From Lactococcus protaetiae (lineage in GTDB: Bacteria > Bacillota > Bacilli > Lactobacillales > Streptococcaceae), in NCBI RefSeq assembly GCF_006965445.1, contig NZ_CP041356.1, forward strand, positions 620,001 through 684,000: a stretch of 64,000 nucleotides of DNA, read 5' to 3'. The translations under genes and the position numbers were made by a program. The notes under the pieces are model-generated. The model searched no databases. It worked only from the letters and a program-made list of their open reading frames with translations, and was not told where the DNA came from. Below, in pieces: positions 41,949-53,343 of the stretch (within the stretch, counting starts at the first letter, position 1; each line of letters begins with the position of its first letter).

Positions 41949-42581
41949 TTGGTTTCCTCACATTTTAAATAGTATATAATCTTTATCAATCCATCTACTG
42001 TAAAAAGCAACAACAAATTGACACTACCAAACTATTTTTGGTGGAACAAAATATAGTTTTGGTATATAATCCCGTGGGATTATAGATATGACTATCATAA
42101 GAAGTTGAAATATAAAATGATAGTCATTTAGTCAAATAATAGTATTTTAGATGATGTATACTTTTATATTTGCTGAAAGAACAAGGATAAAATTATAAAA
42201 GAACGAAAAAGTTATAAGAAAAGTTATGAGTTTCATGATGAAATTTCTCAATTTATTTTGTTATAACATTATTAAGTTTAATTTAAATCCTATGGAGTTT
42301 TTTATAGATTCTCTATATTAAAAATACAAAAAAGAATCTGGAATCAAAAAAGATTAAAAATTTATATTGGACGTTTGTGATAATTTTTAGGTCAGATATC
42401 CTGAATTGCTTAATATGATATATTAATTTTTAAAAGAAATCCAGAAAAATTATCTAAAATCTTAATAAGAAAAATCAATAGTGGATAGGTAAAATAAATT
42501 ATGTGACGCATGGCTCATGCTCGCTTTTTAGATGATTTTACATTAAAATAGATATAACGAAAAAATTTAATGAGGAACAAA
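41949..42581. other. AT-rich spacer at left edge of the accessory island
   Basis: A 633-bp region without a gene. It holds an ACCAAACTATTTTTGGT dyad (~42028-42044), the perfect dyad TATAATCCCGTGGGATTATA (42065-42084) embedded in a promoter-like sequence, an AGATTCT...AGAATCT pair (~42306-42340) and a GCATG-GCT-CATGC hairpin with TTTTT downstream (~42508-42530). No tRNA fragment that could be an attachment site was found. Confidence 0.5.
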
Positions 42582-45209
42582 ATGGAGAATTTTAGTTTAA
42601 GTACAAGACTTTTCATGTTTGCAGTTGTTACATCTATTGAATATGATTTGAGATTTTTTTTATCTACGACTCCCGAAACTATTACTGTTGGTGATGAGTT
42701 AATCTCAAAATCAAATGATAGAAACAAAAAAGAAAGAGTTGACAAAAAATCTGATATTGGTATTATTCTAGATGGCTTAGATTTAGGTGATTTAGTTGGA
42801 TTAATTAACTCAAATGGAGTTATATTAAAATTATCAAATACTACGAGAAATAAGATTAATAGTATATTAGTGGAGAAACTAGTTCCGATAAGGAATAGAA
42901 TAATGCATTCAAAGCCTCTTTATTTTTCTGACCGAGGAACAATAGAAGAAGCCATGCGAACTTTAGATAAAGAATTCCACTTTATAAATTGGAATGAACT
43001 TTTAAAGACAAAGGATAAAATATACAATAATCCCGAAAAATTGATGGCTAGTTTAAAGTTTATTCCAGAGATAGAAGATAATTCAATGTTTCACAATCTT
43101 CCAGAACCAGAGTTTGATGATACTGGATACATAGGTAGAAAACAAGAATTACACGATCTTGATAAATTGGTCAATTCGGATATTTATCCAGTAGTTACGA
43201 TAGTAGGAAATGGAGGTTTTGGTAAAACTGCATTAGTTGTTAAATACTTATACGATTTCATTGACTCTAACAATTCTAATAAATTTGACGCTATTGTTTG
43301 GACAAGTTTAAAGACGAAAACGTTATCGCGCGGAGAGTTTATCAAAATCAAAGATTCTATTTCAAACGCTACTGAATTTTTTAATGATTTACAAATTAAT
43401 CTTATTCAGCAAACTCAAAATCCAATTGATGATATTATTACTTTTATGGAAACTTTTCCCACATTATTAGTTATAGATAATTTAGAAACAATGCCAACTC
43501 TTCAGGTTATTGAATTTTTAAAACGCATACCAAGTAAATCAAAAGTATTAATTACGTCTCGTAAAGGGTTAGGTGAATTAGAGAATAGATATGAGCTGAA
43601 AGAGTTAAGTTCAAAAGATAGTATTGAATATTTTCGATTGCTTTCCAAATATTTTCAACTGGAACTTCATCAACGGCCAGATGAAGAACTTCAAAGGTTT
43701 ATAGAGAAAAATTTGTATTCAAGCCCATTAGTAATAAAATGGTATTTAACAGGAATTTTTTATGGAGCAGATTCCAATTCCATTCTTGCCAATAAGAAAG
43801 AAGTTATCGAATTTTGCATGTCAAACATCATTGATAAATTAGCTGAAAAAGAAATAATGGTTCTATGGCTTTTACTCAATGAAGGAAAACCGCTGACTTT
43901 TGGGGAAATTGTCTACTATATTGGAGAGGAAGACTATCATACCTTAGTGGACAGTGTAAATAAATTAAAATCAACAAGTATGTTATCTTTAGATAAAAGT
44001 GGAATAAATTATTCTATCAATTCATTAGCTAAGGATTATCTGACTTATTTTCGTCCTGTATCGAATGAATTTATTGATATGATTAGAGACAAAAGGATGA
44101 AATTATATAGGATTCTTGAAACAATAAGTTCAAAAAATGAGAATGACCCTTTTGATGCTAAATCTATTCAACATAATTTAGACAATCCAAGTAATAAAAT
44201 TGCTTCTTACTATTTAACAGAGGCTTTAGAAAGTAGTTATCAGAGAGATTGGACAGAAGCTAGTCGTTATCTTGAACGAGCTCTTACAGTAGCACCGGAG
44301 TATTTTGAGATATATAAAATTCGAGCTTTTATTACTAGTGAGATGTCTAATTATTCAGAAGCCCAGGAATTTTATAGAATAGCGTTAGAGAATGCAACAG
44401 ATAATACTACCTCTGCCGTACTTAATTATCATCTAAGTGTATTTTATACTGTGAAAATGCAAGAGCATATTAAGGCTCTTGAGTACATAGAAAAAGCAGA
44501 TGAGCTATTTCCAAACAATTTTAGAATACAACTTGAAAAAGGACGTATACTTACTAACTTATCAAAATACAAAGAAGCAATAGAGATTTTTGAACAGATT
44601 AAATTAAATAATGAAACCACAATTAAATTTGCTAATCAGTATATAAGTAAATATCTTGATGTTTATTTAAGAAGAGCTCAAAGTTTAAATTTCAGAGACT
44701 ACTCATTGAAACTCAGTCTCTTGGGAGATGGGCTGGAAAAACTAGATTATTTAAATGAAGTGGATTATAAAACATCTACTATTCTAATAAAAGTCTTAAT
44801 AGAAGTTGTAAAGCTCTCAAATAAGGACAAGGAAAAATCAACTTTATTATTTGAAAAGTATTATATTAAATATCAAAAAGAAATATTAAAAAATAATACA
44901 GGTCAACTGTTGACATTGAAACGTATTGTAAAGGAGTCTGAAATAAAGGTTCAAGCTGATATTTTCCATTCTTTAAATGATATACATAAAAAAAGTAAGA
45001 AAAGTTATTCTAATTTTACCGTTGAAAACGAGGGAATTATTACTCAATTATTTGAGAGTTCTGGTTTTATAAACAATAAGTTCGGAAAGTACTATTTTGA
45101 TTTAGAAGATTTCGAATATGCCTCTCCAATGGAAGGTGATCAAGTAAAATTTAGGATTCACAGCAATGAAAAAGGTAATCAAGCTAAAGAAATTGACCTG
45201 ATTTTTTAG
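42582..45209 (+). CDS. HEPN-STAND(NB-ARC)-TPR protein with C-terminal cold-shock-like domain; candidate anti-phage sensor
   Basis: An 875-residue protein. I chose ATG 42582 because TGAGGAAC lies 5 nt upstream, which ATG 42570 lacks. Residues ~1-130 form a helical Swt1/HEPN-like domain with the RX4H motif in LVPIRNRIMHSKPL (Arg104, His109), the usual metal-independent RNase active site. Residues ~180-420 are a STAND NTPase: GYIGRKQEL, Walker A VGNGGFGKTAL (209-216), Walker B TLLVIDNLE (~295-300) and sensor LITSRKG (~323-328). Residues ~540-690 contain TPR-like units (WTEASRYLERALTVAPEYFEIY; YKEAIEIFEQI). Residues ~811-875 look like a cold-shock/OB domain: EGIITQLFESSGFI, GKYYFDLEDF, GDQVKFRI, EKGNQAKEI. 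The likely mode is that the TPR/OB end senses a trigger, the STAND core oligomerises and the HEPN domain cuts RNA. The defence role is inferred. Confidence 0.8.
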   Translation: MENFSLSTRLFMFAVVTSIEYDLRFFLSTTPETITVGDELISKSNDRNKKERVDKKSDIGIILDGLDLGDLVGLINSNGVILKLSNTTRNKINSILVEKLVPIRNRIMHSKPLYFSDRGTIEEAMRTLDKEFHFINWNELLKTKDKIYNNPEKLMASLKFIPEIEDNSMFHNLPEPEFDDTGYIGRKQELHDLDKLVNSDIYPVVTIVGNGGFGKTALVVKYLYDFIDSNNSNKFDAIVWTSLKTKTLSRGEFIKIKDSISNATEFFNDLQINLIQQTQNPIDDIITFMETFPTLLVIDNLETMPTLQVIEFLKRIPSKSKVLITSRKGLGELENRYELKELSSKDSIEYFRLLSKYFQLELHQRPDEELQRFIEKNLYSSPLVIKWYLTGIFYGADSNSILANKKEVIEFCMSNIIDKLAEKEIMVLWLLLNEGKPLTFGEIVYYIGEEDYHTLVDSVNKLKSTSMLSLDKSGINYSINSLAKDYLTYFRPVSNEFIDMIRDKRMKLYRILETISSKNENDPFDAKSIQHNLDNPSNKIASYYLTEALESSYQRDWTEASRYLERALTVAPEYFEIYKIRAFITSEMSNYSEAQEFYRIALENATDNTTSAVLNYHLSVFYTVKMQEHIKALEYIEKADELFPNNFRIQLEKGRILTNLSKYKEAIEIFEQIKLNNETTIKFANQYISKYLDVYLRRAQSLNFRDYSLKLSLLGDGLEKLDYLNEVDYKTSTILIKVLIEVVKLSNKDKEKSTLLFEKYYIKYQKEILKNNTGQLLTLKRIVKESEIKVQADIFHSLNDIHKKSKKSYSNFTVENEGIITQLFESSGFINNKFGKYYFDLEDFEYASPMEGDQVKFRIHSNEKGNQAKEIDLIF

Positions 45210-45645
45210 TGACTATGCTTTATTGCAGATGTAGTAGCAAATAAAATGTCTTGAATTATAAGAAAAATTAGAAGGAAGCCAAAAAGATCAATAAAATCGC
45301 AAGAAACCACCCGTAAGCATAAGTGATTTGCTTCACAAATAAAACTAACCAAGCAATAAAAAGTGTGTTAAATAATTTATAAAATAAAGGGTCGTTACAA
45401 AGTGAACGGCTTTTTATTGTGTAAATTGGATAAAAATTACTAAAGGTTTAGTTTGTTGATGTAATTATTTTTACGCTCCTAATTTCTCAGGTTCTAGGTT
45501 AATAATATGAAAAGACTTGTGAAAATTAGTTTTCCAAATTTTTTATGCATTAGACAAAATTAAAAATAAAGTGTTGCAAATGTATTCTAAAAACTGTAAA
45601 ATAAATTTAATGAGAAATACATAAAAAATTAAGGAGAATTTTATA
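45210..45645. other. Spacer before the LXG cluster, with terminator, relic and promoter
   Basis: A GTCGTT...AACGGC hairpin with T run (~45391-45415) may end the STAND transcript. On the minus strand (~45287-45410) a short hydrophobic frame ending WFLAILLIFLASF without a start looks like a gene remnant. The LXG-cluster promoter is TTGCAA (45574-45579), 17 nt, TAAAAT (45597-45602). Confidence 0.5.
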
Positions 45646-45921
45646 ATGGGCGCATCAAGAATTAGCTCTAATGTGATGACAGCACAAAACGCAATCTCTA
45701 AACTAACAGGGGTAGAAGCTGGTGCAATTCAAAATGAGAGTATCCACTTTGCAGGAAGTAACATTGCTTGTATGAAAGCAGGGCAGAAACTGAATAATCA
45801 AATGCTTAAAGATGTGAGTGAGCTAGTGTCATGTATCCAAAAACAAGCAAATAAAGTTGAAGGATTGGCACAGGCAATAGAGTATCGAGATAAAGCGGAT
45901 AGTCAAAGTTGGGGGTTCTAG
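45646..45921 (+). CDS. LXG-associated small helical protein (TIGR04197-like T7SS partner)
   Basis: A 91-residue helical protein starting MGASRISSNVMTAQNAISKL. Its features (SNIACMKAGQKLNNQMLKDVSELV and a C-terminal SQSWGF, both short of WXG100) fit the small proteins encoded just before LXG toxins in streptococci and lactococci. These bind the LXG helices as targeting factors for the type VII secretion system. AAGGAG precedes the ATG. It is the first gene of a four-gene cluster, ending 1 nt before the next gene. No T7SS machinery (essC, esxA) is in this window. Confidence 0.78.
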   Translation: MGASRISSNVMTAQNAISKLTGVEAGAIQNESIHFAGSNIACMKAGQKLNNQMLKDVSELVSCIQKQANKVEGLAQAIEYRDKADSQSWGF

Positions 45922-45922
45922 C

Positions 45923-46278
45923 ATGAAAGATAAAAGTGCAGATGAGCGATTGGTATTAGGGCGAGAAATTTATGCCAAAGAAAATCAAATTGATGAGGTC
46001 AACCAAGAATATCGGAATCATCAAGCTCAACTTGAACGATTTCATAATGAGATGAATCGTTTATTTTATGTTGAAGAAGAGCTTTATGTTCAGGAAAAAC
46101 AAGAGGGAGAGCAGAACAATTGGAAAAGTTCAGAGTTTCAAGGGTTCGTGAAGAAATACAGCAAGTTATTTCTAATGAATTTGATTTGATTGACCGAGGC
46201 TATCGTCAAGTTCGTATGAAAATCCAAGATGATATTGACCAACTTCAAACAGAAAGGAATCGATTGCCGTGGGACTAA
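45923..46278 (+). pseudogene. DUF3958-like LXG partner, frameshifted
   Basis: The frame from ATG 45923 (MKDKSADERLVLGREIYAK) stays helical to ~46110, then runs to a stop at 46189. The -1 frame from ~46100 carries the expected continuation (EQLEKFRVSRVREEIQQ; DDIDQLQTERNRLPWD) and ends at TAA 46276-46278, overlapping the GTG of the LXG gene, as coupled genes do. The two frames together give ~118 residues, the usual size for this second LXG partner. A single-base change near GAGAGCAGAACAATTGG would explain the split; it may be a sequencing error. Confidence 0.72.
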
Positions 46279-47779
46279 AATATAATAAAAACGATGGGAA
46301 TCTTTTTATTTCTGCAATGAATCATAATGTATCAAGCGCAAATGAAATTGTGAGTCGATTAAGAGAGGGAAGCGACCATTTAATTAGTAGGGTAGAGGGT
46401 GGTTCTTCTCAATTATCAGGAAAAGCTTATCATGCCGTAGGAACTCTTTTTGCGAGTTTGATTAAACCAGTGCTTACCAAGTTAGAATCAGCAACAGAAG
46501 ATATAAAAAGTGATATTCAAGTCTTTCACTCTCAAAGTTCTGTATTTGATACCTTTAATGATACAATCTATGATGAAGACCACCTTAATCAATTACTTGA
46601 AATTAAACGTCAGCAACAAGCCTTAGTTCAAACTCAAATCAGTTTATTTAGTGGGAGCTTATTGTGGGATTTGGCTAAAAATGTAGCAGAAGAACTCTTT
46701 TATGAGGGAAAACGACTAGAGAATGTAGCGGAACATTACGCAAATGAGATGAGAGAAATTGAAGAGAAGCTCCGAATCTTACATGAATTTGATTCACGGA
46801 CGAGTAGCCTTTTTCAGGATAGTCTTACGGTGTTCCAAAGTGCGATGCAGGGAGTTAAGGCACTTAATCAGGGGCGCTTTGATTCTAAAGGGAATTTTTC
46901 AATCCCTTCAAGTTCTAATATGGATTGGTACAAAACACTTACTAATCAAAAATTGGATTCAGCCTTAGTTTCAGATGTTGAGGCAGAACGTAATGCACTT
47001 CTCAAAGGACTTGATGTCAAAGGCTTGGCGGATAAAGACCGAGAAAAATATGAGTCATCTGTTTCAGATATTATCAAGACACTACAAAGCCAAGGCTGGA
47101 CAAAGGAAGGGATTGAAGCTTATCTTAAAACGCTTGCGACAATCAATTCAAACAGTCATTCAGCAGGTGACCGTTTCCCAATTGAATCTTACATTGAAAA
47201 TGCTCAATTGATGAAATTCTTGTTAGATAATGCGAGTCATCTTGATGTTTCTAAATACATTGAGAATAATTGGGGAAAGACTAAAACTTATTATTTTGTT
47301 AATGGGAACCAAATTATATTTTAACGCAACTTGGTGCTTATCTTCCACAGTTTAATGTGAAGAAACAAGCCAGTGCAGAGGATGCTTCAAAAGTGGCACC
47401 TATTTTGAAAGATAAAGTTGTTAATCCAAGAGATTCAGGGGTTGCTTTGGTTGCAAATACAATTTTTGATGAATCAGAGTTGATGAGAATAACAAATAGT
47501 AAAGAATTTATTGCAACGTTAAGAAATAAGGTCTTTACTAATACAAAAGCTTCGCTATATAATTTTAATTCATCTATTAAAGGATTTGAAATAGCCAAGA
47601 AAGAATTTGATGCGCTGAAACTTGCGGATGTGAAGACTTATCCAAGTGGGACTATAGTCGGTAAGTTACCTAATGGAGATATTGTTAATCTTCATCCCGG
47701 TAGTTCAGTAGGTGGTGCGCCTTCTTTGGAAATTCAAAGTTCTTTAGATAAAACAATAAATATAAAGATTAGATACTAG
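46269..47779 (+). pseudogene. LXG-domain polymorphic toxin, frameshifted before its C-terminal toxin domain
   Basis: A GTG start at 46269 overlaps the previous gene. Residues ~1-200 form the helical LXG export domain (SSQLSGKAYHAVGTLFASLIKPVL, LXG motif at LSG). The first frame ends at 47324 after NGNQIIF. The next frame carries on from YILTQLGAYLPQFN and holds the C-terminal domain with KTYPSGTIVGKLPNGD, LHPGSSVGGAPSLEIQ and ending INIKIRY. Restored, it is ~503 residues. The C-terminal pattern (GKLPNG, then S-GG-P-LEI, KIRY end) is common at the ends of Bacillus/streptococcal LXG toxins; the catalytic activity is not established here. The shift is near GGGAACCAAATTATATTTTAACG-type A/T runs (~47308-47325). 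Confidence 0.8.
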
Positions 47780-47787
47780 GAGAAGCT

Positions 47788-48363
47788 ATGGAAATGGTAA
47801 TTGATAGTGAGTTTATTTACAAAATATTAGTCATCAGGGAGATTTGGGAGGATGAAGGAACTTTTCATTTTATATTTGAAACTCAAACTGAAAGAGAATT
47901 AGCTAGTAAAGAATATTATGAGTTATCTTTTAGTCGTGTTGTTGGTATGGAATATTCTATAATGGCTATTAACAGACTTAGATTTTCTAAATTAACCGCA
48001 AAAGATGAGTTAAATAGCAATATATGTCTGATAGAAAATTCTGAGTGGATAAAAAACTTAGATGAATACTTTATTGATATTTATCAGCCTAAGAACTTGA
48101 AACATTATCTTATAATAGATTCTAGTGATACTGTAATAGATATTCTAGCAGACGGACACCCAACGTTAGAAAAAATCAGTAAACCTGAAGGTACGAAGTT
48201 ATTAAAAGAAGAAATTGAACAGTTAAGATGGTGGAAAAATAAAGAAAATTTAACAGCTATCCAAGATGAATTAAAAGAGTTAAGAGAGTACAAAATTAAG
48301 CGAGAAAAGGAAGATAAACAAGCTAGAGAAGATGAAATTAATGCTAATTCTTTTGGTTTTTGA
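47788..48363 (+). CDS. Candidate immunity protein to the LXG toxin
   Basis: A 191-residue soluble protein, 8 nt after the toxin stop and behind AGGAG. It has alternating beta-like segments (FIYKILVIREIWEDEGTFHF; LKHYLIIDSSDTVIDIL) and a long charged helix (~150-185, LKELREYKIKREKEDKQ). It has no signal or membrane segment, as expected for a cytosolic antidote to a nuclease-type toxin. The family is not recognised. The immunity role rests on position directly after the toxin. Confidence 0.6.
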   Translation: MEMVIDSEFIYKILVIREIWEDEGTFHFIFETQTERELASKEYYELSFSRVVGMEYSIMAINRLRFSKLTAKDELNSNICLIENSEWIKNLDEYFIDIYQPKNLKHYLIIDSSDTVIDILADGHPTLEKISKPEGTKLLKEEIEQLRWWKNKENLTAIQDELKELREYKIKREKEDKQAREDEINANSFGF

Positions 48364-48394
48364 TGAAATGAAGACATATAGGTGGGGAAATTAA

Positions 48395-48967
48395 ATGTCA
48401 TTTGGGATATTTTTATTAATTGCGTTTATTTTAGTGACGATTGCAAGTGTAGTTTGGAAGTATAGAGGTTTAATCTATTTTGTCGGAATTGTATTTTTGA
48501 TTTGGCTATTTCTGAAGTATTTTTTCGTTGCTTTATTTATAATTTTAGGACTTGTGATTGCTCATTTTGTAAGAAAGAATGAAGTAAATGAGAGAATTTC
48601 TGTTGAAGAAGATAAAGCAAAACAAGCTCACCAAGAAAAAGTAAATGCATGGCGTAAGGAGCAAGAAAGAAAATATGGTTCTAATTGGTATCATGCAAAC
48701 AGAGACGAAAAACAAACTAGAGCAGAAAAATCAAAAGATAGTCAAACTACGAAATTAATAGACTATGATAGACGCTGGGATAGTACAAACCCTTATATTA
48801 TTTTAGGAGTAAGAGAACTATCAACATTTGCTGAAATAAAAAATCAATATAAATTTCTTTCAAAAAAATATCATCCAGACGTTGCGACTGAGTTAAATTC
48901 AGATACGATTATGAAAAAAATAAATTGGGCTTGGGATGAAATAAGAAAAGAAAAAGAAAACTACTGA
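48395..48967 (+). CDS. Membrane-anchored J-domain protein
   Basis: A 190-residue protein. Residues ~1-55 hold two membrane segments (FGIFLLIAFILVTIASVVW; LIYFVGIVFLIWLFLKYFFVALFIILGL in part). Residues ~60-130 are a charged linker. Residues ~135-188 are a J domain: NPYIILGVRELSTFAEIKNQYK, KYHPDVATE with the catalytic HPD, and KKINWAWDEI. It should stimulate DnaK ATPase at the inner face of the membrane. It lies 31 nt after the immunity candidate and reads the same way, so it may assist folding or export of the LXG toxin; that is inference. Confidence 0.8.
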   Translation: MSFGIFLLIAFILVTIASVVWKYRGLIYFVGIVFLIWLFLKYFFVALFIILGLVIAHFVRKNEVNERISVEEDKAKQAHQEKVNAWRKEQERKYGSNWYHANRDEKQTRAEKSKDSQTTKLIDYDRRWDSTNPYIILGVRELSTFAEIKNQYKFLSKKYHPDVATELNSDTIMKKINWAWDEIRKEKENY

Positions 48968-48992
48968 CTTAATGAGTTAGTAGTTTTCTTTA
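48954..48992 (+). terminator. Terminator overlapping the J-domain gene end
   Basis: GAAAACTACTGACT pairs with AGTTAGTAGTTTTC (one mismatch) across a short loop, then T. It closes the LXG operon. Confidence 0.75.
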
Positions 48993-49031
48993 TTTTATAA
49001 AATTAGGTAAGAAAAAGTATGAAAAGTCCTG

Positions 49032-49331
49032 TTAAATATTGTTTTGTTGTTTCCGTAAATATTCATTCATGACGAGTTGCTCTAATAAGTGATTTTTAGA
49101 AAAATGTGCGTATTCTTGTTCAAAGAGCAATTCTTCAATAGATAGTTTTTGTAAAAAATTGGTACATTCTTGCTGATTTTCGATCACGCCTCGACTTGTT
49201 TTGACGGGTAAAAATTTAGTAGTAGGTTTAAAATTCTTTTTGTCAATTAAGGTTTTGATTTGCCTTGATGTTCTATAATCACCATCTCTAAATTTTAAAA
49301 CTAAGCTTAGTGCTTCATTATAAGTTAGACC
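49032..49331 (-). pseudogene. Fragment of an unidentified gene
   Basis: A minus-strand frame without a start codon encodes ~99 residues: GLTYNEALSLVLKFRDGDYR, then KTLIDKKNFKPTTKFLPVKT and a helical end YLRKQQNNI. The upstream end of the frame runs straight into the centre of the 25-bp inverted repeat at 49298-49356, where a stop intervenes. The fragment looks like the C-terminal part of a replication or mobile-element protein cut at the repeat. I do not recognise the family. Confidence 0.45.
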
Positions 49332-49356
49332 TATAATGAAGCACTAAGCTTAGTTT
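49298..49356. repeat. Perfect 25-bp inverted repeat with 9-nt spacer
   Basis: Left arm 49298-49322, right arm 49332-49356 (TATAATGAAGCACTAAGCTT plus AGTTT), spacer AGTTAGACC. Both arms encode the same peptide (YNEALSLV) when read outward, so one arm is an inverted copy of the coding end of the fragment at 49032. It could also act as a strong hairpin before the gene at 49389. Confidence 0.9.
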
Positions 49357-49388
49357 AGAAATTAAGAAATTAGAAAAAGGTAAAAAGT

Positions 49389-49721
49389 ATGAGATTAACA
49401 ACAGAACAAATTAGATTTTTGGAACAATATTTAAGAAGAAATGTAACGGTCACGGTAGTGTCTAGTGTCGTTTTTTATAGAGACGTTCGTCCTTTTTCAG
49501 AAGCGAATAAAGAACTCAGTAATTTTAGTTCAGAAGAGTTAGGGGAAGTTGATGATTTGATGGAAGAATTTTCTATTAATGGTCGTGAAATTAGTTCTTA
49601 TGCGGCGCATGCTTTGCTTGGAGAAAGTCATTTTTCAAGTGATTCTGTCTATGAACTTGAAGAAGCATTTAATGTTATGGGAACAACGATTCAAGAAGTT
49701 TTGTCACAGATGGATAAATAG
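49389..49721 (+). CDS. Hypothetical small protein
   Basis: A 110-residue protein, MRLTTEQIRFLEQYLRRNVTV at the N-terminus (first 20 residues helix plus beta). It is acidic overall, with no membrane segment or Cys. The C-terminus is helical (YELEEAFNVMGTTIQEVLSQM). The AAAAGG Shine-Dalgarno is ~8 nt upstream. It is the first of a run of seven small orphan genes typical of the accessory parts of lactococcal integrative elements. The family is unknown to me. Confidence 0.6.
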   Translation: MRLTTEQIRFLEQYLRRNVTVTVVSSVVFYRDVRPFSEANKELSNFSSEELGEVDDLMEEFSINGREISSYAAHALLGESHFSSDSVYELEEAFNVMGTTIQEVLSQMDK

Positions 49722-49737
49722 GAGAAGTCGATAAATA

Positions 49738-49884
49738 ATGAAAGTTAATCAAAGACAAGTCCGACTGATTATTTTAGAAGCTCAAAGTCAAGAGGTTAAA
49801 TTAAAATTTATTGATGAATTTGAACATTATTCAAGGACTGCCAAAAGCCTTAAAGAATATTTAGAATATATCAGAGCTAGTTGA
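49738..49884 (+). CDS. Very small protein (48 residues)
   Basis: It reads MKVNQRQVRLIILEAQSQEV and ends EYLEYIRAS. GGAGAAG is 7 nt upstream of the ATG, and the gene starts 16 nt after the previous stop in the same direction. It is a charged, helical protein with no recognised motif. The close coupling and good Shine-Dalgarno support it as real. Confidence 0.5.
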   Translation: MKVNQRQVRLIILEAQSQEVKLKFIDEFEHYSRTAKSLKEYLEYIRAS

Positions 49885-50009
49885 ATAGAAGTTGATTTCC
49901 CTCATTCTTCTTTTGCAATTTTAAAGCAATTAGTATTAAAAAATGAGGAGAAACTTTTTTGTCAGTAATAATGAGTTAAAAATAAATTTGACTAGAAAAA
50001 GAGGATAAA

Positions 50010-50411
50010 ATGGAATTTCAAAAAATTAAACGAGAGTGTCATCATGCAACAGAACACTATGGAAATTTAAAAAGAGCGCTGGAAGTCGTGATAGAAACGT
50101 ATAATGAAACAACGTTCAGATATAATTTAAGAATTTCAGGAGTATATGACCTTATTGTAAAACGCGGTTATGGCGAAATTTCACTTGATGTTTTAGCTGA
50201 ACTAAAGTCTGATGAATTTGAAAGTTATTTTGCAGATAGAAGATTTGATGTAAATGCTTTTTCAGAATATTTTTTGAGGGATATTAAGTTTTTTCAGACA
50301 AACGAAGCAGAAGAATTGGCTCAACTAGCTAGAAAATCTATGCAATTGTATCGTGAGTATTTAACAGTTTTAGATAATTTGTATCTTAATTGTGCTTTTG
50401 AAAGTAATTAA
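50010..50411 (+). CDS. Hypothetical helical protein
   Basis: A 133-residue, charged, helical protein: MEFQKIKRECHHATEHYGNL at the start, YFADRRFDVNAFSEYFLRDI in the middle, LYREYLTVLDNLYLNCAFE at the end. It has no transmembrane segment and no conserved catalytic motif. AGAGGA lies ~7 nt before the ATG. It sits among small orphan genes of the island. No function is assigned. Confidence 0.6.
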   Translation: MEFQKIKRECHHATEHYGNLKRALEVVIETYNETTFRYNLRISGVYDLIVKRGYGEISLDVLAELKSDEFESYFADRRFDVNAFSEYFLRDIKFFQTNEAEELAQLARKSMQLYREYLTVLDNLYLNCAFESN

Positions 50412-50473
50412 AAGTTGAAAAATGCACCTATTTGTGATAAAATGTTAGTAAATAAAGAATGAGAGGTGTAGAT

Positions 50474-50803
50474 ATGAGTGTGATTCAAGTTTCTGCAAGA
50501 GTAGATAAAACTTTGAGAGATGAAGCTCAAAAAGTATTTGATAAGCAAGGGCTAGATGTTGCGACTGTGATTAAGATGTTAATTACAAAAACAGCTTATG
50601 AACAACAAATACCGCTCACTCTTTTTACTCAATCATCAACAGGTTATCCTTCGGGGTGGTTTTCTCCTGAACGAGTAGAAGCAAGAGGAAAAATTTCTGA
50701 AATGACTAAAAAATCAGAAGCAAAAACACTTGATTTCTCAAAAACAGAAGATGTTGCGGAGTTTTTCAATGAGAAATTTCCAGAGTATGAGGGGTTAATG
50801 TAG
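50474..50803 (+). CDS. RelB/DinJ-family antitoxin-like protein
   Basis: A 109-residue protein. I chose ATG 50474 because GAGAGGTG is 5 nt upstream and homologues start MSVIQVSARVDKTL. The N-terminal ribbon-helix-helix (VSARVDKTLRDEAQKVFDKQGLDVATVIKMLITKTA, shown by its ends VSARVDKTL and VATVIKMLI) matches RelB/DinJ. The C-terminus (DVAEFFNEKFPEYEGLM) would bind the toxin. It overlaps the following gene by 1 nt (TAGTG), the usual antitoxin-toxin coupling. Confidence 0.8.
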   Translation: MSVIQVSARVDKTLRDEAQKVFDKQGLDVATVIKMLITKTAYEQQIPLTLFTQSSTGYPSGWFSPERVEARGKISEMTKKSEAKTLDFSKTEDVAEFFNEKFPEYEGLM

Positions 50804-51135
50804 TGGAACTGAGCGAGCATACAGTGGTTATCGCCAAAGTTATTTATGCGGACGGGACGGGTTCAAAAGTTCGTCCCGCTTTTGTTATAGAGTTAGACGG
50901 TACAGTTGTAAAAACTTATCGCATTACAAGCCAATATGAAAATAAATCAGAGTATATTAAGAGTAGATACTTTGAAATTATTGATTATATTGAGGCAGGC
51001 TTACGTAAACGTTCATGGATTGATACGGTTCAGGCTTATAATATTGATGGTAATAAAACAAAAATAAGAGTGTTGGGCTATTTATCAGCACGAGATGAAA
51101 TAAGACTTCGAGAGTTTTTAGAACAGTTAGAATAA
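50803..51135 (+). CDS. PemK/MazF-like toxin
   Basis: A 110-residue protein with GTG start overlapping the antitoxin stop. VVIAKVIYADGTGSKVRPAFVIE resembles the MazF/PemK N-terminus (K-RPA-V), and RSWIDTVQAYNI with IRVLGYLSARDEIRLREFLEQL resembles the C-terminal half. MazF-type toxins are sequence-specific endoribonucleases. RelB-type antitoxins can pair with MazF-like toxins in streptococci. The catalytic Arg/Thr pair is not certain from eye inspection. A hairpin terminator follows. Confidence 0.65.
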   Translation: MELSEHTVVIAKVIYADGTGSKVRPAFVIELDGTVVKTYRITSQYENKSEYIKSRYFEIIDYIEAGLRKRSWIDTVQAYNIDGNKTKIRVLGYLSARDEIRLREFLEQLE

Positions 51136-51166
51136 GCACTGACATTTAGTCAGGCTTTTTTATTTT
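51136..51166 (+). terminator. Terminator after the toxin-antitoxin pair
   Basis: GCACTGAC pairs with GTCAGGC (one bulged A) around ATTTA, followed by T. It is the only CTGAC/GTCAG-type terminator inside the island. Confidence 0.75.
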
Positions 51167-51194
51167 TAGGAAAGAAAATAGTGAGGATAGAGTT

Positions 51195-51509
51195 ATGATT
51201 TATAATGTTGATATAAGTGCAAATTTTAATGAAGAACAGCACGGAGTTAACACTCGTACAGCAGAGATTGAGGTATATTTAAGAGAAACAGAAACGAATA
51301 AGTTATTCAAATATTTTCCTATGTCGGCAGAAATTATTCAGGAAACTGAAACAGATAAATTTTATGAGGTTGATTTCAGACGTGCTTATTTTGGTAAGCA
51401 AGAAGGCAGGGTTTTATCACAATTAGGAGTACAGCGCTTTAAAAAAATGTTTGGTGGTTTTGCGGACGAGAAACATTTAAGTATCGCATTGGAGTACGAT
51501 TATGATTAA
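51195..51509 (+). CDS. Hypothetical beta-rich protein
   Basis: A 104-residue protein, MIYNVDISANFNEEQHGVNT at the start. It alternates beta-like strands (AEIEVYLRETETNKLFKYFP; KFYEVDFRRAYFG). No membrane segment or known motif. Its last 8 bases overlap the next gene (ATGATTAA), indicating an operon. The island context suggests a regulatory or mobilization accessory function, but nothing specific is visible. Confidence 0.6.
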   Translation: MIYNVDISANFNEEQHGVNTRTAEIEVYLRETETNKLFKYFPMSAEIIQETETDKFYEVDFRRAYFGKQEGRVLSQLGVQRFKKMFGGFADEKHLSIALEYDYD

Positions 51510-51723
51510 AGAAGAACAAATAGCAGATTTAAGGCGAGATGTTGAAAAAGTACGTAGAGCAAGTGAAGCACCGCGTACTTGGGAAGGTTTAGCGGAGATT
51601 GAATCAATTATAAATTATATCAATCGAAAATATGGAACATCTTTTAGAGGTTATGAGATAGCATTAAGCGAAGCGGAATCTTACTTATGGAATAAGCATG
51701 ATAGGCTAAAAGGTTACTATTAG
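51502..51723 (+). CDS. Hypothetical small basic/acidic helical protein
   Basis: A 73-residue protein, MIKEEQIADLRRDVEKVRRA then an aromatic C-terminus (FRGYEIALSEAESYLWNK). It overlaps the preceding gene by 8 nt. It is probably cytosolic and helical. The family is unknown to me. A hairpin terminator follows immediately. Confidence 0.58.
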   Translation: MIKEEQIADLRRDVEKVRRASEAPRTWEGLAEIESIINYINRKYGTSFRGYEIALSEAESYLWNKHDRLKGYY

Positions 51724-51724
51724 G

Positions 51725-51756
51725 AAAAGAGCAGGAAAAATCTTGCTCTTTTTTGT
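51725..51756 (+). terminator. Terminator before the xis-int pair
   Basis: AAAAGAGCAGG pairs with CTTGCTCTTTT-type sequence around AAAAAT, followed by six T. Confidence 0.8.
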
Positions 51757-51791
51757 GTTTAAAAATTGAAAAGGAAGGAAGATTAAATATT

Positions 51792-51995
51792 ATGAATCGA
51801 AATTTGATTAGTAAACCTATAATTACTTGTGAAGATTTAATACAGTTGGGTTTACCACCAACACAAGCGAAAAGAGTAATTCATGATGCGAAAAAAAAGG
51901 CAGTTTTAGCAGGATTTACTTTTTATAATGGAAAGCAAAACTTTGCGCCTTCTAAATTTATCTTTGAAATTATTGGAATAGCAGAGGTAGCTTAA
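51792..51995 (+). CDS. DUF3173-like small protein, probable excisionase
   Basis: A 67-residue protein. I chose ATG 51792 (MNRNLISKPIITCEDLIQL) because GGAAGGAAG lies ~11 nt upstream; an earlier in-frame start would fall in the terminator. It has the same helix-turn-helix layout (LIQLGLPPTQAKRVIHDAKK, then FTFYNGKQNFAPSKFIFEI) as the small gene next to the ybaB-element integrase. Its stop overlaps the integrase start (TAATG), so the two are co-translated. Confidence 0.75.
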   Translation: MNRNLISKPIITCEDLIQLGLPPTQAKRVIHDAKKKAVLAGFTFYNGKQNFAPSKFIFEIIGIAEVA

Positions 51996-53128
51996 TGGCA
52001 ACAATACGATATAGGCAACGTGGAGTAAAAAAACTTTGGCATTTTGAAATTAGAGATGAATCAGGAAAAAGTGTAGCTTATCAAGGTGGATTTAAAACAA
52101 AGAGAATGGCTCAACTAGCTGGAAGTCCAATCTTTCAGGAAATTCAAAACGGAAGTAAGTTAAGCCCAGAAATGACACTCCTTAATTTATATGATTACTG
52201 GTTTGATGTAAAAATTAATAGTAAAGATTTAGAAGTAGCAACTTTTAGAAAATACTCTTATTATAAAAATGTGATTCAAGAAAACTTTGATATTCCAATA
52301 AAAAATATTAAGACAAGTCAGTATCAGCAGAAAATGAATAAATTAGGGGAAAAAGTTAGCTATGATGTTTTGCAAAGAATAAATAGTGTCATTCATAAGT
52401 CTATACAGTTGGCAAAAAGTGATAAAGTGCTTGTTGATGATTTTACATTAGGTGTAGATTTGAATACACAAAAGAAGTCAAAACTAATTGAGAATAAATA
52501 TCTTCATAGCATATCAGATATATTAAAATTACAAAAGGAATTACGAGAGCGATTGAATTATAAAAAATCAGTAGTTCCTTATGTCCTTTATATTTTGCTT
52601 TCTACGGGTATGAGATATGGAGAAGCAATTGCTCTTACATGGAATGATATTAATTTTGAAAATGAAATAATTCATACTTATCGAAGATTTAACACTTCGC
52701 CTAAAATTTGGAAATTTGTTGCTCCAAAAACTGATATTTCAATTAGAGACATTCCACTAAATAAAAACGATATAGAAGTTTTAAAAAGTTTAAAAAAAGA
52801 GCAGAAATCTAGTAATTCAGAATTAGATATTAAAAATAAAAACAATTTAGTTTTTCAACATTACGGTTTAACTCATGATGTGCCAAGCACGGTATCAAGT
52901 AATAAGACACTTAGAAAGATATTAGATGATATGAAAATAGAGCCTAGTAATTTATCAGTATATGGTCTAAGACACACTAGAGCTAGTTATCTAATTCATT
53001 CAGGAATACCTGTTGATGTTTGCGCAAAAGTTTTGGGTCATACTGTAATACAATTTGAAAAGACTTATCGTCATTTGTTAATTGAAAAAAGAGATGAAGG
53101 TTTTGATGCAATTAGAAAGATATTGTGA
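51995..53128 (+). CDS. int: Tyrosine recombinase/integrase of the tRNA-Thr island
   Basis: A 377-residue integrase. The N-terminal arm-binding domain is ATIRYRQRGVKKLWHFEIRD, the core-binding domain spans ~60-165, and the catalytic domain has Arg in LLSTGMRYGEAIALTW (~210), LSVYGLRHTRASYLIHSG (~325; Arg present, the first His of HxxR is Tyr) and LGHTVIQFEKTYRHLL (His and Tyr nucleophile ~355). It ends 80 bp from the 3' end of tRNA-Thr, the usual placement for an element inserted in a tRNA gene. The protein is full-length and looks functional. Confidence 0.92.
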   Translation: MATIRYRQRGVKKLWHFEIRDESGKSVAYQGGFKTKRMAQLAGSPIFQEIQNGSKLSPEMTLLNLYDYWFDVKINSKDLEVATFRKYSYYKNVIQENFDIPIKNIKTSQYQQKMNKLGEKVSYDVLQRINSVIHKSIQLAKSDKVLVDDFTLGVDLNTQKKSKLIENKYLHSISDILKLQKELRERLNYKKSVVPYVLYILLSTGMRYGEAIALTWNDINFENEIIHTYRRFNTSPKIWKFVAPKTDISIRDIPLNKNDIEVLKSLKKEQKSSNSELDIKNKNNLVFQHYGLTHDVPSTVSSNKTLRKILDDMKIEPSNLSVYGLRHTRASYLIHSGIPVDVCAKVLGHTVIQFEKTYRHLLIEKRDEGFDAIRKIL

Positions 53129-53162
53129 GTGGGGCAATTTTAGGGGCAAATAAAAAAGACAA

Positions 53163-53200
53163 ACAAAAAAGCCTTATATATCAACGATACAAGGCTTTTG
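53163..53200 (-). terminator. tRNA-Thr terminator (minus strand)
   Basis: AAAAGCCTT and AAGGCTTTT pair (9 bp) across a 15-nt loop, with T run on the minus strand toward the integrase. Confidence 0.7.
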
Positions 53201-53206
53201 ACTTAA

Positions 53207-53278
53207 TGCCGACTATAGGAATCGAACCTACGACCCTTCGTTACGAGTGAAGTGCTCTACCGACTGAGCTAAGTCGGC
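53207..53278 (-). tRNA. tRNA-Thr (anticodon CGT)
   Basis: A 72-nt tRNA including the discriminator A. Acceptor GCCGACT/AGTCGGC is perfect, with D arm AGCTCAGTCGGTAGAGC and T arm GTAGGTTCGATTCCTAT. The anticodon loop CTCGTAA gives CGT, reading ACG. The innermost anticodon-stem pair (31-39) is A-C. It is the likely integration target of the adjacent integrase. Confidence 0.92.
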
Positions 53279-53343
53279 ATTATAGTGAAAGTGAAAAAAT
53301 CCACTTCCATTATGATACAACTTTTCATATTAAATTTCAAGAA

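Follow-up and report, generated by a model that had tools for sequence, protein, structure and literature searches.

In the 64,000-bp stretch of Lactococcus protaetiae DNA analysed here (contig NZ_CP041356.1, positions 620,001 to 684,000; referred to as the window), an open reading frame (ORF) at 42582-45209 of the forward strand encodes a protein of 875 amino acids and is free of internal stops. A preliminary description of this DNA had divided the protein into an RX4H HEPN head (R104-H109), a complete STAND/NB-ARC NTPase, TPR-like repeats and a C-terminal cold-shock-like fold, and had placed the gene in an AT-rich setting. The profiles and structure models presented below bear out this four-part layout, and the GC content is 29.0% for the gene and 30.6% for the island carrying it, compared with ~37.5% in the flanks. 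A second in-frame ATG is located upstream at 42570, although we prefer the start at ATG 42582 because this is directly preceded by GAGG (42572-42575). Promoter-like and terminator-like sites at the locus are no commoner than expected by chance. The ORF is an intact bacterial NLR-like gene on a mobile island, and its features are as follows (CSD, cold-shock domain).

42582..45209, + strand: whole gene of the HEPN-NB-ARC-TPR-CSD protein (ORF; full-length relatives at 20-41% identity)
42582..43031, + strand: HEPN domain, Swt1-like, residues 1 to ~150 (model pLDDT 89.9, VIA-align, hhalign)
42891..42908, + strand: RNxxMH (RX4H) HEPN catalytic motif, residues 104-109 (R104, N105 and H109 invariant in 31/31)
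43128..44051, + strand: NB-ARC/STAND NTPase with winged-helix region, residues ~183-490 (Pfam NB-ARC 4.5e-9)
43206..43229, + strand: Walker A GNGGFGKT, residues 209-216 (G209, G211, G212, G214 and K215 invariant in 31/31)
43464..43490, + strand: Walker B LLVIDNLET, residues 295-303 (D299-T303 invariant in 31/31)
44184..44621, + strand: TPR array, residues ~535-680 (Pfam TPR_19 3.9e-8, TPR_14 6.2e-6; phmmer to consensus TPR proteins)
45030..45206, + strand: cold-shock (OB-fold) domain, residues 817-875 (Csp profile E ~1e-12; model and Foldseek)

The invariance counts refer to a family alignment of 31 full-length proteins. The first queries, made with the single protein, recovered plasmid-borne proteins: a full-length relative in Planococcus (40% identity) and others in Rhizobium. 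Single-sequence scans of genome contigs and viral contigs gave no relative, but these were found when an alignment of four proteins was used for a wider scan, which added 30 loci from GTDB species genomes plus a single viral contig. Besides the viral contig, the 31 proteins come from Bacillota, Pseudomonadota, Bacteroidota, Myxococcota and Planctomycetota, and an archaeal metagenome-assembled genome (L046) contains a fragment of a family protein; no relative was present in the phage records searched. Matches through TPR segments only were dismissed as unrelated proteins. Family members occur in three of 399 Bacilli species genomes (<1%), L. protaetiae included, and in one of 18 species of the genus, a sparse spread like that of mobile defence genes. 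In a quick tree the Bacillota members form one supported set.

Within the head, residues E20, D22, R104, N105, H109, P112 and L113 are unchanged across all 31 proteins. The structure model is all-helical, RNxxxH falling where a long helix (residues 86-108) ends, and the head has the defining HEPN arrangement, an RX4-6H motif with N, D or H after the arginine that closes the long helix of an all-helical domain. No HEPN model was matched in a Pfam scan of the single sequence, and HEPN_Swt1 appears in the Pfam results for 12 of the 31 family proteins, with a best E of 0.0039 that is under the cut-off. When the family HEPN alignment was compared by hhalign with 19 PF18731 (HEPN_Swt1) domains, the two aligned over 69 columns (96.3%, E 1.5e-9) with their RNxxxH motifs in register. 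Structural comparisons gave modest scores: the HEPN RNase AbiF ranks first in Foldseek, but without significance (E 2.1), and VIA-align places AbiF (Z 7.0) ahead of a HEPN-MNT complex and a pair of MntA-HepT entries (Z 5.5), its top four matches being HEPN structures throughout and all below the Z advised for helical folds. PADLOC candidate-defence models (PDC-M34B) match 15 of the 31 members over the N-terminal HEPN region. No significant match was returned by a sequence-profile search of the PDB with the family HEPN alignment, or by a viral fold search with the head model. The profile-profile comparison is decisive, and on sequence we assign the head to the Swt1-like HEPN domains.

The NTPase is clear from the single sequence, with the NB-ARC profile matching residues 194-328 above the curated Pfam cut-off, together with a Walker A of the form GxGGxGKT and a Walker B with an acidic residue; NB-ARC is present in all 31 family proteins. 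Several TPR models also exceed their curated Pfam cut-offs. Because E20, D22, R104, N105 and H109 in the head and K215 and D299 in the NTPase are invariant in the 31 proteins, both enzyme functions are under selection.

The CSD is weak in the 875-residue protein alone (Pfam CSD 0.045, sub-threshold; PADLOC CSD_V 3e-5; NCBIfam retron Se72 effector 6.5e-5), but clear at the family level, where a profile of 24 C-termini matches CspA, CspB and TmCsp in the PDB at E ~1e-12. Its model is a five-stranded barrel matching CspA and CspB in Foldseek (prob 1.00), so that both the fold and a sequence relation to Csp proteins place it among cold-shock OB domains. As a reference for nucleic-acid contacts we used the Bacillus subtilis CspB sequence and its contact residues W8, K13, F15, F17, F27 and H29. 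Aromatic residues at positions 15, 17 and 27 are retained in 29-30 of 30 family domains and H29 in eight, whereas W8 and K13 are gone from nearly all. The L. protaetiae domain retains only F17 and an aromatic residue at 27, with W8, K13, F15 and H29 replaced, and it lacks the full RNP1/RNP2 contact set, which marks RNA-binding cold-shock members and not the OB fold itself. We therefore file the C-terminus as a cold-shock-type OB fold and a putative RNA binder. A Planctomycete relative (L059, 7980-10997) has an S1 RNA-binding domain where others have the CSD (Pfam 2.7e-13), and two relatives (L044 and L045) have two CSDs in tandem, which favours RNA binding at this end of the family proteins; the CSD is missing from the viral-contig member (L064). 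Nucleic-acid sensing by the C-terminal OB domain is possible; in the L. protaetiae copy one customary aromatic contact is gone.

The gene was described as standing alone next to an integrase. The integrase is indeed on the same island, although 6.8 kb away, and the gene does not stand alone, as it is the first of an 11.08-kb island that also encodes LXG-like, DnaJ-domain, RelB-like and DUF3173 proteins. In a blastn comparison with the corresponding locus of the nearest relative in the genus (G001, L087), homology ends at 42100 and restarts at 53179, with ~60 bp in place of the island. The boundaries and integration genes are the following.

42101..53178, no strand: mobile island between a glgB-like gene and tRNA-Thr (missing in the nearest relative by blastn)
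51753-51995, + strand: DUF3173 gene (Pfam DUF3173 3.3e-13)
51995-53128, + strand: tyrosine integrase at the tRNA end of the island (Pfam Phage_integrase 5.6e-19)
53206..53279, - strand: tRNA-Thr (CGT) flanking the integration site (ARAGORN; Rfam tRNA)

No direct repeat of 13 or more bases of the tRNA-Thr end was found elsewhere in the window, and no island DNA was present in the plasmids searched. The interval between the glgB-like gene and tRNA-Thr (L088-L091) differs in gene content among species of the genus, with some ORFs of 1,804 and 1,983 amino acids that have signal-peptide-like starts, indicating that the site is variable.

The remaining island genes are of several kinds. In the 45646-48363 segment an LXG-like ORF (Pfam LXG 1.4e-4, under the cut-off) is accompanied by two small helical ORFs and followed by two more ORFs, an arrangement that by its sequence resembles a toxin-immunity cassette of type VII secretion; 47357-47779 within the segment is a separate ORF, so the putative toxin may be split or frameshifted. 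Four more LXG-type matches, three of them above the Pfam cut-off, lie in the same genome outside the window (G000 C1:2032130-2037761 and 2280258-2280770). A membrane protein whose C-terminus is a J domain is encoded at 48395-48967 (Pfam DnaJ 7e-10), and a J-domain protein is also encoded close to the relative in Rhizobium BG4 (L032, 2181-3197). Phage sensing by bNACHT25 is mediated by host DnaJ (PMC12169576), although the presence of J-domain genes near family members is probably coincidence. At 50459-51135 a RelB-family antitoxin gene (Pfam 3.3e-7) is directly followed by an ORF of 110 amino acids, likely forming a toxin-antitoxin pair as judged from the sequence.

The genomic neighbours of the relatives were surveyed using PADLOC on 236 neighbouring ORFs and 20 named ones, plus one annotated record. 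Recognised defence genes are located within ~6 kb of at least nine of 32 loci, an uncontrolled count. With about five defence systems per genome, approximately one of 32 loci would be expected by chance. The systems identified are listed by locus.

L032 and L058: type I restriction-modification
L039 and L052: type III restriction-modification
L056 and L061: Gabija
L036: Septu PtuA
L050: BREX PglX and BrxL
L041: SAVED-CHAT

A cold-shock domain at the sensing end had been thought not to be a described layout, but proteins with HEPN, STAND and a C-terminal cold-shock OB domain were reported in 2013 by Anantharaman et al. (PMC3710099), including gi 229028907 of Bacillus cereus, along with the Swt1-clade HEPN-STAND-TPR-S1 proteins Npun_F6454, MED222_16016 and Desac_1927. 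These share with the L. protaetiae protein the order of HEPN, STAND, (TPR) and a C-terminal cold-shock or S1 OB domain, and have a predicted active HEPN; they differ in being computational descriptions. Compared by description, they very likely belong to the same subfamily, with the N-terminal HEPN, the STAND NTPase and the C-terminal cold-shock OB domain all present here. The gene at 42582-45209 thus adds a member to a known predicted class, and the layout itself is not new.

The same core also occurs in SAMD9, a STAND-TPR-OB protein whose OB domain is cold-shock-like (PMC5445408). SAMD9, SAMD9L and their bacterial members (PMC5445408, PMC13245274) have a STAND-like NTPase, TPRs and a C-terminal cold-shock-like OB domain as found here, and the likeness extends to an RNase effector, a tRNA nuclease in SAMD9, where the N-terminal heads are variable. 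The SAMD9 family has G in place of the Walker A lysine, whereas the 875-residue protein has a HEPN head and K215, invariant in all 31 members. We regard it as working like the SAMD9 family, with no claim of membership. Two further loci, L002 and L095, encode a related NB-ARC core with other heads (AlbA_2-like by eye in L002; L095 is annotated as 'RNA-binding domain-containing protein'), which hints that heads are exchanged on this core, as they are in SAMD9.

A system of similar plan with demonstrated activity is the TIR-STAND-TPR protein ('TIR-NLR') of P4-like satellites, which blocks phages in E. coli (PMC9122126). It is likewise a single gene with an N-terminal effector, a STAND NTPase and C-terminal TPRs, although its head is a TIR NADase and no OB domain is reported. 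Avs/AVAST and bNACHT proteins are likewise built on a STAND or NACHT core, with exchangeable effectors at the N-terminus and sensors at the C-terminus; the 875-residue protein differs in its NB-ARC-type core and TPR-CSD end, and a PADLOC scan matched CSD_V only, with no Avs or bNACHT model. In type V (Se72) retrons the CSD forms a small retron protein of its own. This effector (CSD_V, NF038236) gives the best profile matches of the CSD examined here, but no reverse transcriptase is seen at the locus. AbiF (PDB 8vz6), an HEPN RNase of the Abi2/Swt1 clan and the best structural match of the head, differs in that it consists of HEPN alone and binds a non-coding RNA; an Rfam scan near the gene found tRNA-Thr only, which lends no support to an AbiF-like RNA partner.

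Taken together, we consider it probable that 42582-45209 encodes a one-protein NLR-like abortive-infection switch, predicted to act against phages by cutting RNA. This reading is favoured because of the invariant catalytic and Walker residues, the HEPN and CSD evidence, the defence neighbours, the sparse spread, the absence of the island from the nearest relative, and the phage-blocking activity of TIR-STAND-TPR. The earlier guess at a single-gene defence system is well supported by the same invariant residues, by the mobile island with its empty site, and by the neighbours. At rest the NB-ARC domain, held by the TPR and C-terminal half, would keep the HEPN RNase off, as is general for STAND proteins. 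A phage-derived cue read by the TPRs, the cold-shock end, or both, would lead to nucleotide exchange and oligomerisation of the NTPase, which would allow HEPN domains to assemble into active, metal-independent RNases. Presumably host RNA would then be cut and growth halted before the phage spreads, as would be expected of a HEPN protein with an invariant RNxxxH. RNA or a ribonucleoprotein is the most likely ligand of the CSD, which would either take part in triggering or guide the RNase.

Several observations weigh against this switch. No experimental work on the layout, the protein or the family was found in the literature covered, outside which most subscription journals and preprints fall; none of the genes on the island (42101-53178) was recognised as a known defence gene; and the neighbour count is uncontrolled. 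Further, the L. protaetiae protein has the longest branch of the Bacillota clade and is alone in the family in having serine at the F15 position of RNP1, so the copy is possibly partly decayed, and the eroded RNP face weakens the case for RNA binding by this member. A decaying, non-functional copy would also account for the very low GC content and for the presence in one of 18 species of the genus, but the 875-codon frame is intact and all family-invariant HEPN and NTPase residues are kept, and we judge this improbable.

A variant of the switch, to which we give somewhat less than an even chance, is that the CSD is not a sensor but docks the RNase on an RNA or ribosomal substrate, or provides an autoinhibitory or protein-binding surface, with the trigger read by the TPRs. 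TPRs are the usual ligand-reading part of STAND proteins, and both the family-wide loss of K13 and W8 (with H29 in 8/30 and serine for F15 here, though the F15/F17/F27 aromatics are otherwise kept) and the viral-contig member without a CSD fit well with this; the S1 replacement and the tandem CSDs do not, as they look as if RNA binding there were selected. That the gene mainly serves its island, as a module for addiction or exclusion, harming cells that lose the island or repelling rival elements, would suit the first gene of an integrase-bearing island and a Planococcus plasmid relative that lies near a RelE/ParE-type toxin and other small toxin-antitoxin-like genes. However, there is no conserved linked antitoxin gene, neighbours vary from relative to relative, and many chromosomal and contig-borne relatives have defence genes beside them, making this explanation about as unlikely as the decayed copy. 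Many cellular RNA regulators contain cold-shock domains, and a housekeeping regulator of stress or RNA decay, unrelated to phage, could be imagined, but we consider this very improbable for a gene found in <1% of sampled Bacilli genomes and missing from 17 of the 18 species of the genus, with an island location and with defence genes beside its relatives.

The family constitutes a predicted class of NLR-like RNases with invariant active sites, spread over at least five phyla. A more speculative proposal, which we think rather unlikely, is that STAND-TPR-OB is an ancient immune core common to bacteria and animals (SAMD9), in which the OB domain reads foreign RNA or ribonucleoprotein and the RNase head is swappable. 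If so, the family would be a bacterial RNA-sensing NLR, with a HEPN head here and a tRNA nuclease in SAMD9. The 875-residue protein is a compact model in which to ask whether RNA sensing in STAND immunity can be the task of an OB/cold-shock cap, a question about the role of the cap that is posed for human SAMD9 too.
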